64,000 nucleotides of DNA from Frateuria flava (lineage in GTDB: Bacteria; Pseudomonadota; Gammaproteobacteria; Xanthomonadales; Rhodanobacteraceae), in the NCBI RefSeq assembly GCF_017837635.1, contig NZ_JAGJRS010000008.1:1-64000 (forward strand), written 5' to 3'. The stretch's first letter is position 1, and every line of letters starts with the position of its first letter. Below, piece after piece: positions 40,340 to 51,058 of this stretch. A model generated the notes under the pieces. That model did not search any database. It had not been told where the DNA came from and was given only the letters and a program-made list of their open reading frames with translations. A program made the position numbers and the translations under genes.

Positions 40340-41017
40340 ATGTCCCTGTTCCGCCTTTCCATCGCTGCCCTCGCGCTGGCACTGCTTGCCGGTTGCGCGG
40401 CGATGCCCGCGCGCGACGACGGCGCGTGGGCGCCGACCCCGCCGATGCAGCCGGAGATCGCCGCCGCGCCGGCCGACGGCGCGATCTACCACGACAACCA
40501 GAACATGGAGCTGTTCGCCGACGCCCGCGCGCACCGGGTGGGCGACATCCTCACCATCGTGCTGGTGGAAAGCACCCAGGCCAGCAAGAAGGCCAGCACC
40601 AGCACCAGCAAGAAGGACAAGGCCGACGTCGCCGCGCCCACGATCATGGGCAAGGACCTGACCATCAACGGCAACCCGCTCAGCGTGGGGCTGGACAGCG
40701 AACGCAACTTCGACGGCAGCGGTTCGTCCAGCCAGTCCAACCAGCTCACCGGCCAGATCACCGTCACCGTGGCGCAACGCCTGTCCAACGGCAACCTGAT
40801 CGTGCGCGGCGAGAAGTGGCTGACCATCAACCAGGGCCAGGAACTGGTGCGCATCGCCGGCATCGTGCGCCCGCAGGACATCGGCCAGGACAACACCGTG
40901 GCCTCCACCCGCGTCGCCGACGCGCGCATCAGCTACACCGGCCGCGGCACGCTGGCCGACGCGAACACGCGCGGGTGGCTCTCGCGCTTCTTCAATTCCA
41001 AGTGGATGCCGTTCTGA
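40340..41017 (+). CDS. flgH: Flagellar L-ring lipoprotein FlgH
   Basis: A 225-residue outer-membrane lipoprotein forming the L ring. The lipobox is LLAGC with Cys19. The typical repeated beta segments include [40 protein letters not shown] and [20 protein letters not shown]. Its TGA overlaps the flgI start (TGATG), so the two ring proteins are translationally coupled. Confidence 0.97.
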
Positions 41018-42312
41018 TGAACGCCATGAATTCCAGCCCCGCGCGCACTGCTCCCTCTCCCCTCCGGGGAGAGGGCTGGGGTGAGGGGTCGATTGTCGCG
41101 AGTGGCATTCGTCTGACGCGCGCTGCTTTTGCGTCTCTCAAGCGTCGCCTGCACAACCTTGTCTGCAAGAGTGGCCCCTCACCCCAACCCTCTCCGCGGA
41201 GAGGAGAGGGAGCTGGTCTGAGGCTCGCGTTCGGCCTTGCTCTTTGCCTGCTGGCCGCCCCGACTCACGCCGACAAGATCCGCGACCTCGCCTCCGTCGG
41301 CGGCGTGCGCTCCAACCAGTTGATCGGTTACGGCCTGGTCGTGGGCCTGGACGGCTCGGGCGACCAGACCACCCAGGCCCCGTTCACCACGCAGAGCCTG
41401 GAGAACATGCTCCAGCAGTTCGGCATTACCGTGCCGCCGAACGCGCGCCCGCAGCTCAAGAACGCCGCGGCGGTGACCATCACCGCCGAACTGCCGCCGT
41501 TCGCCAAGCCGGGCCAGGTCATCGACGTCACCGTCGCCTCGATTGGCAATGCCAAGAGCCTGCGCGGTGGCGAGCTGCTGATGTCCCCGCTGCGCGGCGC
41601 CGACGGCAACGTCTACGCGATCGCCCAGGGCAGCGTGGTGGTTGGTGGCATCAGCGCGCAGGGCAAGAGCGGCTCCAGCGTGCAGGTCAACATTTCCGCC
41701 AGCGGGCGCATTCCCAATGGCGCCTCGGTCGAACGCAGCGTGCCCAGCTCCTTCAGCGGCGCCGGCGACCTGATGCTCAACCTCAACACCCCCGACTTCA
41801 CCACCGCCGCGCGCGTCGCGCAGGCGGTCAACGCCGCCTTCGGTGCCGGCACCGCCACGCCGGTCGACGGCGGCACCATTTCCGTGCGCGGCCCGCAGGA
41901 TCCGGCGCAGAAGGTCGCCTGGCTGGGCATGATCCAGAACCTGGACGTCACCCCGGGCGATGCGCCGGCACGCGTGGTGGTCAACTCGCGTACCGGCACC
42001 GTGGTGATCGGTTCGGACGTCAAGGTGACCGCCGCCGCAGTGGCGCACGGCGCGATCCAGGTCACGATTAGCGAGCAGCCGCTGGTCAGCCAGCCGCAGC
42101 CGTTCTCGCGCGGGCAGACCGCTGTGGTGCCCAGTTCCGACGTGCAGGTCAGCGAGGACGGCGCGCACATGTTCAAGTTCGGCCCCGGCGTCAGCCTGGA
42201 CACGATCGTGCGCGCGGTGAACCAGGTCGGCGCCGGTCCCAGCGATCTGATCTCGATCCTGCAGGCGCTCAAGCAGGCTGGCGCGCTTCATGCAGAGCTC
42301 GTGGTGATCTAG
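41017..42312 (+). CDS. flgI: Flagellar P-ring protein FlgI with repeat-expanded N-terminus
   Basis: A periplasmic P-ring subunit. The mature part from [17 protein letters not shown] (residue 86 onwards) is standard, including [15 protein letters not shown] and [20 protein letters not shown]. The frame from the ATG at 41017, which overlaps the flgH stop, gives 431 residues, about 60 more than usual. The excess lies before the hydrophobic signal core ([16 protein letters not shown], about 70-85) and is encoded by a 166-bp inverted-repeat element. A second possible start is the in-frame CTG at 41218, five bases after GGAGAGGGAG. Either export works with a very long n-region or translation starts late; the sequence alone cannot decide. 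Confidence 0.93.
41049..41214. repeat. 166-bp element with 39-bp terminal inverted repeats inside flgI
   Basis: GCTCCCTCTCCCCTCCGGGG...GGGGTGAGGGG (41049-41087) and CCCCTCACCCCAACCCTCTC...GAGGGAGC (41176-41214) are inverted copies bracketing 88 bases. The same family is found at 50632-50955. It is open in the flgI frame. Confidence 0.88.
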
Positions 42313-42329
42313 CGACACGCGACGGAAAA

Positions 42330-43427
42330 ATGACGCCCGCCAACGCCTCCCTGCCGGCACTCGACACCTGGACCGACCTGTCCGGGTTCAACCAGTTGCG
42401 CGCGCAGGCCAAGGGCGACGACCAGGCGGCGTTGCCGAAGGTCGCGAAGCAGTTCGAGGCGATCTTCACCCAGATGATGTTGAAGTCGATGCGCGAGGCG
42501 AACGCCAGCTTCGGCGACAACGACGTCGGCGACAGCCAGCAGGGCAAGGCCTACCGCGACCTGTTCGACCAGCAGCTTTCGCTCTCGCTCTCGCAGGGCA
42601 ACAACGGCCTGGGGATCGCGCGCATGCTGGTGCGCCAGCTCGGCGGCAAGGACGCCGAGCCCAAGCCCGAACCGACCACCGACAACAAGGCGCTGCTCGC
42701 CAGCGTCGCCGCCGGCGCGCTGCCGGGGACGGCGGCCGCCAGCCTGTTCGGCCCGCTCGCGGCCGGCGCCGAGGCTGGCACCCGCGCACTGCTTCATCTG
42801 GGCGAAAGCGCCGCCGGGCAGGGCGATGGCCTGTTGCCGCTGACCGCCGATGCGAACGCAACGCAGGGTTGGCGCGCCACGCTCGGCGAACTGGCCCAGG
42901 GCGCGGTCAACGTGGTCAGCAAATTCATTCCGGGCGACCCGGCCGGCTTCGTGCGCGCGATGGCGCCGCACGCCCAGGCCGCTGCCGACAAGCTCGGCGT
43001 CTCGGTGCGCGCGCTGCTGGCGCAGGCGGCGCTGGAGACCGGCTGGGGCAGGCACCTGCCACATCGCCACGACGGCTCCAGCAGCTTCAACCTGTTCGGC
43101 ATCAAGGCCGGCGGCAGCTGGGACGGTGACAAGGTCAGCGTGCCCACGCTCGAGTACGAAGGCGGCGTGGCGGTGCGCAAGCGCGACAACTTCCGTGCCT
43201 ACGGCAATCCGTCCGAAGCCTTCGCCGACTACGCGCGCATGCTCTCCGACAACCCGCGCTACGCGCAGGCGCTGGGCAAGGGCGAGAACATCGCCGGCTT
43301 CGCCCATGCGCTGAGCCGCGGCGGCTACGCGACCGATCCGTCCTATGCCGCCAAGATCACCGCCATCGCCAATAGCCCGCAGATGCGCGAGGCGTTGGCG
43401 GCGCTGGATGCGGGGTCGTTCAAGTGA
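42330..43427 (+). CDS. flgJ: FlgJ, rod scaffold and peptidoglycan hydrolase
   Basis: A 365-residue two-domain protein. The N-terminal rod-capping part (about 30-100) contains KQFEAIFTQMMLKSMREANA. The C-terminal glucosaminidase domain (about 205-360) contains LLAQAALETGWGRHLP with catalytic Glu236, and NLFGIKAGGSWDG. It opens the peptidoglycan layer for the growing rod. A linker rich in Ala and Gly joins the domains. It starts 17 bases after flgI and is the last gene before a repeat-filled gap. Confidence 0.96.
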   Translation: MTPANASLPALDTWTDLSGFNQLRAQAKGDDQAALPKVAKQFEAIFTQMMLKSMREANASFGDNDVGDSQQGKAYRDLFDQQLSLSLSQGNNGLGIARMLVRQLGGKDAEPKPEPTTDNKALLASVAAGALPGTAAASLFGPLAAGAEAGTRALLHLGESAAGQGDGLLPLTADANATQGWRATLGELAQGAVNVVSKFIPGDPAGFVRAMAPHAQAAADKLGVSVRALLAQAALETGWGRHLPHRHDGSSSFNLFGIKAGGSWDGDKVSVPTLEYEGGVAVRKRDNFRAYGNPSEAFADYARMLSDNPRYAQALGKGENIAGFAHALSRGGYATDPSYAAKITAIANSPQMREALAALDAGSFK

Positions 43428-43479
43428 GGTGTCAAGTTGCCGTCACAGGGGGCATGACGCATGCCTCCCCGCAAGGGCG

Positions 43480-43592
43480 CCCCCATCCGCCTGTCGGCAC
43501 CTTCCCCCGTGGAACGGGGGAAGGCTCGATGGGCCGCATCCCGAATCCTTCCCCCGTTCCACGGGGGAAGGTGCCCGAAGGGCGGATGGGGG
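43480..43592. repeat. Inverted pair of the main GC-rich repeat between flgJ and flgK
   Basis: CCCCCATCCGCCTGTCGGCA...GTGGAACGGGGGAAGG faces CCTTCCCCCGTTCCACGGGG...GGGCGGATGGGGG. The whole gap 43428-43643 is open in the flgK frame from 43461, so a longer FlgK is formally possible but not expected. Confidence 0.85.
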
Positions 43593-43643
43593 CGAGCTTG
43601 CCTCGGCCCCCGCGCCCGCGCGTCACCAAAACGGAAAACCCCC

Positions 43644-45512
43644 ATGGCTGACCTGCTTTCCACCGGCGTCTCCGGCCTGCTCGCCGCCCAGGTGGGCCTG
43701 AGCACCACCGGCCACAACGTCTCCAACGCCAACACCGACGGCTACAGCCGCCAGCAGGTGACCTTCGCCGCGCGCGCGCCGCAGGCCGAGGGGCGCTATT
43801 ACGTGGGCACCGGCGTGGATACGCAGGCCGTGCAGCGCGCCTACAGCCAGTACCTCAACACCGCGCTGTGGTCGGCGTCCTCCTCCAAGGGACGCGCCGA
43901 CGCCTACCAGGCGCTGACCGACCAGCTCAACAACCAGCTCTCCGGCAGCAGCAACCTGCAGTCGTCGCTGGATACCTTCTTCGGCGCGGTGCAGGACGTG
44001 GCCAATGCCCCGGCCGACGCCTCCGCGCGTGGCGTGCTGCTCGCCCGGGCCGGCGCGCTGGCCAGCACCTTCCGCGCGCTGTCCGGCCAGTTCGACAGCC
44101 TCGATGGCCAGGTGCAGCGGCAGGTGACCGACACGGTCGCCTCGATCAACAGCGACAGCGCCGCGATCGCCAAGCTCAACGAACGCATCCGCTCCTCCAC
44201 CGGCGCCGAGCCATCCGACCTGCTCGACCAGCGCGACGCGCTGATCAGGAAGCTCTCGGGCGAAGTGGGCATCAGCGTGGCGACGCAGAACGACGGCACG
44301 CTCAGCGTGTTCGTCGGCAACGGCCAGGCGCTGGTGAGCGGCACGCAGTCCTACGCGTTGGGCACGGCGCCGAACACCTACGACGCGACGCGCCTGGAGA
44401 TCGTCGACAAGGGCACCGGCGCGGTGCTGAGCGGACGCATCGGCGGCGGCACCCTCGGTGCGCTGCTCGACTTCCGCAGCAACGTGCTCGACCCGGCGCA
44501 GAACCAGCTCGGCCGCGCCGCGCTGGCCATGGCCGATGCGTTCAACGCGCAGCACGCGCAGGGTGTCGATCTCAACGGCCAGGTCGGCGGTGAATTCTTC
44601 ACCGTGGCCGGCCCCACCGTGCAGGCGGCCAGTGGCAACGCCGGCAGCGCCACGATCTCGGCCAGCATGGCCGACCTTGGCGCGCTGGGCAGCCAGGACT
44701 ACACGCTCTCCTTCGATGGCAGCGCCTGGAATCTCAAGGACGCCAGCGGCGCCGCGGTGGCCATGACCGGCACCGGCACCGCGACCGACCCATTCGTGGC
44801 CGGGGGTTTGAACTTCGTGGTCGGTGGCGGTGCAGCCAGCGCGGGCGACAGCTACCGCATCCAGCCCAGCCGCAACGCCGCCGGCAGCATGGCGGTGGCG
44901 ATCACCGATCCCAACAAGATCGCGGCCGCCGTGCCGCTGCTTGGCAGCGCGGCCAGCGCCAATACCGGCAGCGGTGCGATCGGTTCGCTCACGGTCGCCG
45001 ACGGTACCGACCCCAACCTGTTCACCGCATCGAACATCGTCTTTTCCTCGCCCACCAGCTACAGCATCGACGGCGGCCCGGCGCAGACGTTCACCTCCGG
45101 CACGCCGATCGTGCACAACGGCTGGAGCCTGACCCTGGACGGCGCGCCGGCCGCCGGCGACAGCTTCGGCGTCAAGGCCAATGCCAACGCGCGCGGCGAC
45201 AACGCCAACGCGCTCAAGCTCGGCGCGGTCGCCGATCTGGGCGTTCTCGATGGCGGCGCCACCAGCGTCGGACGCGCCTACGGACAACTGGTCGGCCAGG
45301 TCGGCAGCGCCGGTTCGCTGGCCGACGATGCGGCCAAGACGCAGGGCGCCGTGTTCAACCAGGCGATGGCGGCGCAGCAGAGCGTCAGTGGCGTGAACAT
45401 GGACGAGGAGGCCGCCAACCTGGTGCGCTTCCAGCAGGCCTACCAGGCATCGGCGCAGATCATCACCGCCGCCAACACCGTATTCAACGCGCTGCTCGGC
45501 GCGTTCAAGTAA
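43644..45512 (+). CDS. flgK: Flagellar hook-filament junction protein FlgK
   Basis: A 622-residue hook-associated protein 1. The N-terminal axial block is LSTGVSGLLAAQVGLSTTGH and NVSNANTDGYSRQQVTFAAR, and the C-terminal one MDEEAANLVRFQQAYQASAQ and IITAANTVFNALLGAF. The central region has duplicated strand-rich parts (near 330-560) with the pattern ASAGDSYRI...PAAGDSFGV. The ATG at 43644 gives the conserved MADLLSTGVSG start. flgL follows after 14 bases. Confidence 0.96.
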   Translation: MADLLSTGVSGLLAAQVGLSTTGHNVSNANTDGYSRQQVTFAARAPQAEGRYYVGTGVDTQAVQRAYSQYLNTALWSASSSKGRADAYQALTDQLNNQLSGSSNLQSSLDTFFGAVQDVANAPADASARGVLLARAGALASTFRALSGQFDSLDGQVQRQVTDTVASINSDSAAIAKLNERIRSSTGAEPSDLLDQRDALIRKLSGEVGISVATQNDGTLSVFVGNGQALVSGTQSYALGTAPNTYDATRLEIVDKGTGAVLSGRIGGGTLGALLDFRSNVLDPAQNQLGRAALAMADAFNAQHAQGVDLNGQVGGEFFTVAGPTVQAASGNAGSATISASMADLGALGSQDYTLSFDGSAWNLKDASGAAVAMTGTGTATDPFVAGGLNFVVGGGAASAGDSYRIQPSRNAAGSMAVAITDPNKIAAAVPLLGSAASANTGSGAIGSLTVADGTDPNLFTASNIVFSSPTSYSIDGGPAQTFTSGTPIVHNGWSLTLDGAPAAGDSFGVKANANARGDNANALKLGAVADLGVLDGGATSVGRAYGQLVGQVGSAGSLADDAAKTQGAVFNQAMAAQQSVSGVNMDEEAANLVRFQQAYQASAQIITAANTVFNALLGAFK

Positions 45513-50599: not shown

Positions 50600-51058
50600 A
50601 TGGGCCAAGGCGTGCGGAAGTGGCATCAGATGGCCCTTGCTCCCTCTCCCCTCCGGGGAGAGGGCTGGGGTGAGGGGCCAGGGCTTGCGGGAAGTTGTGT
50701 ACAGGCCCTTGCGCCCTCTCCCCTCCGGGGAGACGGCTGGGGTGAGGGGCCAAGGCTTGCGGGAAGTTGTGTACAGGCCCTTGCTCCCTCTCCCCTCCGG
50801 GGAGAGGGCTGGGGTGAGGGGCCAAGGCTTGCGGGAAGTTGTGTACGAGCCAGATCAGGTCTAGCTGTCGGGACGAAAATCAGGTGGGCTCGACAGAAGC
50901 TCCCCCGCGAGCCCCGGCCCCTCACCCCAACCCTCTCCCCGGAGGGGAGAGGGGGCAATCGTCGTCCTTGCGGACGGCTGTCATTTAATAAGAGCGGGGC
51001 CGGCCCGCCGCTTGCATACTCACCCCCGATGAACCCCGCCGTCGGAGAAACGACATGA
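50600..51058 (+). CDS. Repeat-borne open frame between fliT and pilZ (doubtful gene)
   Basis: A 152-codon frame starting 25 bases after the fliT stop and ending with a TGA that overlaps the pilZ start (ATGA, 51055-51058). It passes through three tandem 72-bp repeats, so the product repeats [15 protein letters not shown] three times. It is probably not a functional protein but it bridges the gap in the same way as the frames before imuA, dnaE2 and fliI. Confidence 0.2.
   Translation: MGQGVRKWHQMALAPSPLRGEGWGEGPGLAGSCVQALAPSPLRGDGWGEGPRLAGSCVQALAPSPLRGEGWGEGPRLAGSCVRARSGLAVGTKIRWARQKLPREPRPLTPTLSPEGRGGNRRPCGRLSFNKSGAGPPLAYSPPMNPAVGETT
50632..50847 (+). repeat. Three tandem 72-bp repeats between fliT and pilZ
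   Basis: Units at 50632-50703, 50704-50775 and 50776-50847 differ by only a few bases. Each holds the CTCTCCCCTCCGGGGAGAGG hairpin and GGCTTGCGGGAAGTTGTGTA. The arrays lack unique spacers. Confidence 0.95.
50917..50955 (-). repeat. Inverted copy of the CTCTCCCC repeat
   Basis: GGCCCCTCACCCCAACCCTC...GGAGGGGAGAGGG is the reverse complement of the core of the 72-bp units and closes the repeat block in inverted orientation, as in the flgI element. Confidence 0.85.
51001..51016 (+). promoter_or_regulatory. Possible sigma-54 promoter of pilZ
   Basis: CGGCCCGCCGCTTGCA has GG and GC ten bases apart and a good TTGCA, but the -24 box deviates from TGGCAC. It lies 39 bases before the start codon. Confidence 0.3.

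Follow-up and report, generated by a model that had tools for sequence, protein, structure and literature searches.

The RPEs of Rickettsia are palindromes of about 150 bp that lie in frame in protein-coding genes and are translated together with them, according to one review (PMC10969869), and another paper states that expression in vivo holds for RPE-1 proteins bearing the element at the N-terminus (PMC3733652). The latter source describes REP elements, tagged by GTAG or CGTC, as short palindromes that often occur as inverted pairs and are mostly extragenic, sometimes within ORFs; the tetranucleotide GTAG or CGTC at one end of the palindrome defines large REP superfamilies. It also cautions that N-terminal intragenic REPs are possibly extragenic, the true start lying further downstream (PMC3733652). 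Enterobacterial repeat units fused to ORFs were described by Delihas in 2007 for one putative protein, with the repeat in the hydrophobic core.

The locus analysed here is the flgH–flgI junction of Frateuria flava, in a window (the whole stretch of DNA analysed, 64,000 nucleotides) that belongs to a genome of 3.68 Mb in 40 contigs. The likeness between RPEs and the element in flgI is one of behaviour, that of an in-frame palindrome, in a different organism. Whereas the RPEs hit many unrelated genes, here one flgI site has been hit repeatedly by four repeat families (A–D), and the repeats lie within a segment that FlgI presumably loses by cleavage, unlike RPEs. With respect to REP tags, family B has a GTAG end whereas family A has neither tag. 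In contrast to the case of Delihas, the gene is a conserved flagellar one, the comparison is family-wide, and the repeat occupies the n-region of the signal peptide. The features of the locus, with the evidence for each, are as follows.

40340–41017, + strand: flgH (L-ring protein), the upstream coupled gene (ORF; PF02107 at 217.6 bits)
41015–41017, + strand: flgH stop codon TGA (sequence)
41015–41019, + strand: TGATG, in which the flgH stop overlaps the flgI start and translation is presumably coupled (sequence)
41017–41019, + strand: flgI start codon ATG (sequence)
41017–42312, + strand: flgI ORF, 431 codons plus stop (open frame; PF02119 over residues 87–430)
41050–41088, + strand: left arm of the palindromic element, 13 residues in the FlgI frame (inverted repeat; family-A matches)
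41089–41174, + strand: spacer of the element, 86 nt (spacer search across 61 genomes)
41175–41213, + strand: right arm of the palindromic element, 13 residues in the FlgI frame (inverted repeat)
41203–41212, + strand: SD-like GGAGAGGGAG, predicted to pair with the left arm when the RNA folds (sequence; RNA fold)
41218–41220, + strand: in-frame CTG, codon 68, rival start, not conserved (sequence)
41218–41271, + strand: hydrophobic core and c-region of the signal peptide, 18 residues (translation; comparison with relatives)
41272–42309, + strand: coding sequence of mature FlgI, the P-ring protein (PF02119 match)

The preliminary description of this DNA had reported that flgH and flgI overlap in TGATG and that the signal core begins about 68 codons past the ATG, and both statements agree with the sequence: the TGA occupies 41015–41017, the ATG 41017–41019, and the core starts at codon 68. 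Since the flgI start lies inside the flgH stop, the junction has zero intergenic room. The flgI frame has ATG at codons 1 and 4, and beyond codon 4 no ATG, GTG or TTG occurs until the mature protein, which would begin at D86 after cleavage between THA and DKI. Residues 87–430 match PF02119 at 478.1 bits, against a curated cut-off of 25.3, as befits a P-ring domain, and mature FlgI is 95–99% identical to that of three of the four same-genus relatives having FlgI and 93% identical to that of the fourth.

Between the flgI ATG and the signal-peptide core, with the flgI frame open throughout, lie two arms of 39 nt each, 92% complementary and 86 nt apart. The element had been presented as 166 bp long with inverted repeats of 39 bp; its arm length and in-frame position hold, and its span is corrected to 164 nt. 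The sequence GGAGAGGGAG was likewise correctly placed five bases 5′ of the in-frame CTG at 41218. The predicted RNA fold of 41000–41290 has an energy of −145 kcal/mol (z = −5.2, with 0 of 200 shuffles as good), and so strong a leader hairpin could hinder translation.

The element is a dispersed repeat with 172 matches in the Frateuria flava genome, and the matches listed fall in at least 43 separate places. Within the window, the arm pattern is matched 6 times against 0 in 100 shuffles, and a further family-A array with four arms is seen at about 50638–50957. Two-armed copies of family A, outermost bases excluded, measure 122–191 nt, mostly 134–171 nt, with conserved arms and variable spacers; across 61 genomes, related copies of the flgI spacer were limited to one elsewhere in the same genome, one in Frateuria sp. 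STR12 and a weak 31-nt match in genome G035. By a rough coding score, the flanks of the other copies look extragenic and hold no further obvious within-gene copy, in a set where many loci overlap and which does not include the copy in ppc discussed below. Among the 22 copies considered in this genome, which include those of flgI and ppc, 49 of 132 copy-frames are free of stops, so that a single open frame is unremarkable and it is the cross-species comparison that carries the significance.

As to the class of the element, it has terminal inverted repeats, occurs in many copies and is too short for a transposase, as is the case for MITEs. It shares with both REPINs and MITEs an inverted pair of arms (about 160 bp in the flgI copy) and a high copy number. 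Read by eye, both arms lack the tetranucleotides GTAG and CGTC that tag the REP superfamilies. RAYT-type genes are expected near repeats. The Frateuria flava genome has three Y1_Tnp genes, none of which is flanked by a full family-A arm in the 3.3-kb loci, where only 10-nt part matches occur; this sets family A apart from REPINs, and a REPIN mobilised by a RAYT of the same genome was rejected on this ground. A mobilising RAYT may be located elsewhere or have been lost. Y1 transposase genes do adjoin other repeats, at about 1299–2041 in locus L244 and 307–2177 in locus L242 (GTGGGCTGAAGCCCACCCTACG; AACGGGGTCAGGTTCACTT). A consistent target site duplication was not recognised by eye in an alignment that lacks a near-identical empty site. 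MITE-like repeat or REP-doublet repeat is the most fitting name for the element. Rfam gave only sub-threshold matches of microRNA type, which were taken as reflecting the hairpin and rejected.

For the comparison with relatives, 233 genomes were searched, and 140 of them matched FlgI with an E-value of 1e-60 or better. The 5′ region of flgI was read in 132 of these, the eight left out, among them G021, G024, G163, G190, G203, G204 and G215, being partial, near a contig end or having only a distant paralogue. Four of the 132 (G007, G019, G120 and G094) were dropped because flgH was not properly placed, which leaves 128 genomes; these share ancestry, so the counts given below are not of independent cases. 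In what follows, G000 is Frateuria flava (the window), G003 Frateuria terrea and G005 Frateuria sp. STR12, all of one genus; G011 is Fulvimonas soli, G019 Frateuria defendens and G006 Mizugakiibacter sediminis. Genus g18 holds Rhodanobacter, g10 Luteibacter, and g13 and g19 Dyella. The tree was built from FlgH together with at most 60 residues of FlgI and has 119 coupled tips, G197 being left out. Several relatives have a second FlgI, about 42–45% identical (e.g. G102:C55:27129-28166 and G091:C16:54579-55622), which suggests a second flagellar system.

An ATG overlapping the flgH stop or within 7 nt of it is present in 120 of the 128 relatives, and TGATG in 109. This coupled ATG is in frame with mature FlgI in 114 of the 120, and all 114 frames are stop-free. 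The distance from the flgH stop to the start of mature FlgI ranges from 64 to 533 nt in the 128 genomes, and in-frame leaders have 22–178 codons. Among spacers of 130 nt or more, the FlgI frame is open in 56 of 56, versus 11 and 27 of 56 when the remaining two forward frames are read; the first two codons were skipped in this control, since the ATGA start inflates the +1 frame. On the tree, at least 73 changes of length stand against 4 changes of frame state. This conservation of frame is the main evidence that selection keeps the inserted DNA translated from the coupled ATG onwards, and for flgI it argues against extragenic repeats with the true start further downstream.

The coupled in-frame arrangement is missing in 14 of the 128 genomes, a count that includes G178, with unresolved bases in its leader. 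Repeats are present and the coupled ATG is out of frame in G123, G006 and G162; in-frame ATGs occur further down in G006 and G162, and 21 codons before the mature protein in G123. In five genomes of genus g17 (loci L134, L136, L138, L147 and L150), repeats are present, the coupled ATG is lost, and an in-frame ATG in the element spacer precedes the right arm, so that the repeat itself may have supplied the flgI start codon. The leader sequence changes more freely than its frame. For the pairs G000–G003, G000–G005 and G003–G005, leader dN is 0.16–0.20 and dS 0.30–0.51 (dN/dS about 0.4–0.5), with zero nonsynonymous change in the first 50 codons of mature FlgI, and in some of 17 pairs (G184–G171, G184–G201 and G199–G210) leader dN is about equal to dS or above it, so that constraint other than on the frame is not apparent there. 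These values point to weak constraint on the leader, in which frame would matter more than sequence.

Recognisable repeats were found in 38 of the 128 flgI leaders and fall into four families.

Family A: GGGGAGAGGGYTGGGGTGAGGGG type, in 7 genera
Family B: GTAGGAGCCCGC..GCGGGCGATGC, in 2 genera, with GTAG at one end
Family C: CCTCCCCCTGC..GCAGGGGGAGG, in 4 genera
Family D: ATTCCGGCTTTCGCCGGAAT, in 1 genus

By chance, at most 0.15 genomes per family would be expected, as estimated by shuffling, 20 times each, the 87 leaders that measure at least 100 nt. Within the genus of Frateuria flava, G000, G003 and G005 have family A and G001 has family B, whereas the long leader of G002 is free of repeats. 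In genus g18, G175 carries family C and its sister G210 family B (support 0.95). When only branches with support of 0.95 or more are counted and resolved as favourably as possible, family A requires at least 11 gains or losses, B 3, C 5 and D 1, at least 20 for the four together; Fitch counts on the full, weakly supported tree are 17, 6, 11 and 1. Repeats of at least four unrelated families have entered the leader site many times, been lost from it and entered it again. The coupled ATG is kept in 33 repeat-bearing genomes, and in 30 of them it is in frame and the leader stop-free.

The repeats show a preference for this site. In a test with loose motifs, they occur between flgH and mature FlgI in 41 of 128 genomes, inside flgH in 0 of 128 and within 300 nt before flgH in 2 of 107. 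A survey of neighbouring junctions, covering 68 loci in which flgH and flgI were placed, those of the genus of Frateuria flava among them, gave repeats at flgH–flgI in 20, a number that is possibly inflated because these loci were ranked by similarity to Frateuria flava FlgI including its leader (the set of 128 genomes was not so chosen). At the other junctions, which differ in length so that shorter ones leave less room for repeats, they were found in 0 of 53 (flgF–flgG), 1 of 65 (flgG–flgH), 0 of 63 (flgI–flgJ) and 3 of 67 (flgJ–flgK), and the matched coding stretches of six genes (66–73 stretches per gene) contained none. In the window, another C/G-rich repeat of CACCTTCCCCCGTGGAACGGGG type lies just upstream of flgK at 43424–43650 and seems to give the listed ORF a spurious long N-terminus.

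A second gene, ppc, provides an independent view of how family A behaves within a reading frame. Twenty matches to the peptide that the element encodes, taken from Frateuria and its relatives, were examined, of which 16 are open through the element; judged by eye, real genes run through it at two ppc loci only, and the other open matches look like spurious GC-rich frames. The two ppc copies (G000:C5:81165-84080 and one in G001) are orthologous and were identified by PDB sequence match. Compared with uninserted relatives, PEP carboxylase has about 72 extra residues between ALARYGGLV and PLDIAPLFETIDDL, ending GPSPQSSPRRGE, and two PDB alignments match only on both sides of the insert. A search with this protein gave matches in 40 of 41 genomes, with alignment in one piece across the insert in G000, G001, G011 and G019; other PEP carboxylases align as two pieces or one half, omitting roughly residues 513–584, and that of G004 is cut by contig ends and has its loop enlarged by other residues. 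Family-A motifs are matched in this loop 7 times in G000, 7 in G001, 5 in G011 and once, weakly, in G019, and not at all in 11 uninserted sequences; in uninserted G002, G003 and G005, the loops are 12–15 residues above the shortest. Because a downstream start cannot rescue PEP carboxylase, in-frame translation of the family-A repeat is the natural reading here. Two unrelated genes, flgI and ppc, accordingly hold an in-frame insertion with the frame kept, as RPE-like elements do.

Which start codon FlgI uses was a matter of two options in the preliminary description, a very long n-region or a new ribosome-binding site with a CTG start. Under the latter, the right arm would provide GGAGAGGGAG, FlgI would start at CTG 41218 with an 18-residue signal peptide, and the upstream frame would be fortuitous or a short leader ORF. 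Translation rarely starts at CTG. The spacing from GGAGAGGGAG is good in the sequence, and start-like codons lie 19–20 codons before the mature protein, behind G-rich arms, in G003 (TTG), G005, G172 and G226 (all GTG). However, the alignment with relatives that had been suggested as a check, in which G003 and G005 carry related insertions, shows that the CTG is not conserved, the aligned codon being TTG in G003 and CCG in G005 (with GTG one codon earlier), and the SD-like stretch is held within the stem of the predicted fold. A CTG start would not require the frame and openness from the ATG, yet both are kept. In addition, 17 of the 56 long leaders, that of Frateuria flava included, have no ATG, GTG or TTG 18–45 codons before the mature protein, so that with canonical starts the long leader is the sole choice there. 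The ribosome-binding site and CTG start therefore find little favour, and we regard them as very improbable. Some ATG, GTG or TTG does occur at this distance in 39 of the 56, and downstream starts are possible in many species. Use of both starts, giving a long and a short precursor of one mature FlgI in a ratio set by hairpin and coupling, would fit the GTG or TTG right behind the right arm in G003, G005 and G172, where family A is in flgI, and ribosomes arriving from the ATG would open the predicted structure; the start-like codon varies in kind and place, however, and is absent in G216, also with family A, which makes this a distinctly unlikely arrangement. A minor second start may exist, given that G003, G005, G172 and G226 have TTG or GTG just past the right arm or a similar G-rich stretch.

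What made the leader long is a separate matter. A sequencing or assembly artefact, for which nothing was found to speak, is virtually excluded, since the independent genomes of Frateuria terrea and Frateuria sp. STR12 have related insertions at the same place. The long leader could be an old functional extension of FlgI in this bacterial family, with the repeats as later decoration and not the cause of its length. Long leaders in relatives without any repeat had been named as evidence against a role of the element, and such leaders do exist in part: in 29 of the 128 genomes, 130 nt or more separate the flgH stop from mature FlgI and no repeat is recognised there, in leaders that differ in sequence. 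Repeats are one source of the length, and the idea that the element alone made the long leader is weakened. Several repeat-free long leaders have, by eye, a cationic segment resembling RRxxxRxxLxRWxxxG right before the hydrophobic core (L014, L020, L062, L063, L066, L045, L049, L056 and L111), possibly a conserved n-region feature, and the sharing of such a segment by G002, genus g4 and part of g18 speaks for an old extension. Against it, repeat-bearing leaders do not retain this segment (by eye), leader sequence is poorly conserved, and leaders in genus g10 have 22–29 codons in 21 of 22 genomes and 45 codons in the other. An ancient extension is rather unlikely on balance. The site tolerates length in general.

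Of the starts considered, the coupled ATG is probably the one used, and translation would turn the element into a dispensable, very long n-region, presumably removed by cleavage; the frames kept in 114 of 120 relatives, the leaders devoid of a canonical downstream start and the in-frame copy in PEP carboxylase bear out the long n-region. According to this scheme, a mobile, high-copy family-A repeat would insert in the n-region of the flgI signal peptide, where the stretch from ATG to core would tolerate extra DNA provided that the frame is kept. Translation from the ATG would make the element part of a cytoplasmic leader of about 67 residues before the core, the core would direct Sec export, and the whole leader would be removed between THA and DKI to leave mature FlgI unaltered. 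We infer that insertion would be neutral.

In the titles and abstract openings of the open-licence literature, no report of repeats in flgI leaders was found among the matches listed. As far as this literature was searched, what is new is that one site, in the n-region of one coupled flagellar gene, is reused by several repeat families, together with a family-wide test of frame. A bolder proposal is that the FlgI n-region of Rhodanobacter, Frateuria, Dyella and their kin is a recurrent landing site where unrelated palindromic repeats are recruited time and again and retained as a leader that is both translated and structured, its hairpin and cationic n-region tuning the production and export of FlgI against those of the coupled FlgH; such a shared tuning device, beyond tolerated parasites, is a speculation that we deem unlikely. 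If the leader does affect FlgI output, this would be a case of parasitic repeats recurrently recruited for regulation. The flgI leaders constitute an experiment replicated by nature on the length and oddity that the n-region of a Sec signal peptide can reach, with 22 to 178 codons from the coupled start to the mature protein in one orthologue. By comparison across species, they also answer the caveat that intragenic repeats at N-termini reflect misannotated starts. They also show where selfish palindromes can reside within a tightly coupled operon: the start of FlgI, presumably discarded, is a place where the gene can bear parasitic DNA and probably remain functional.
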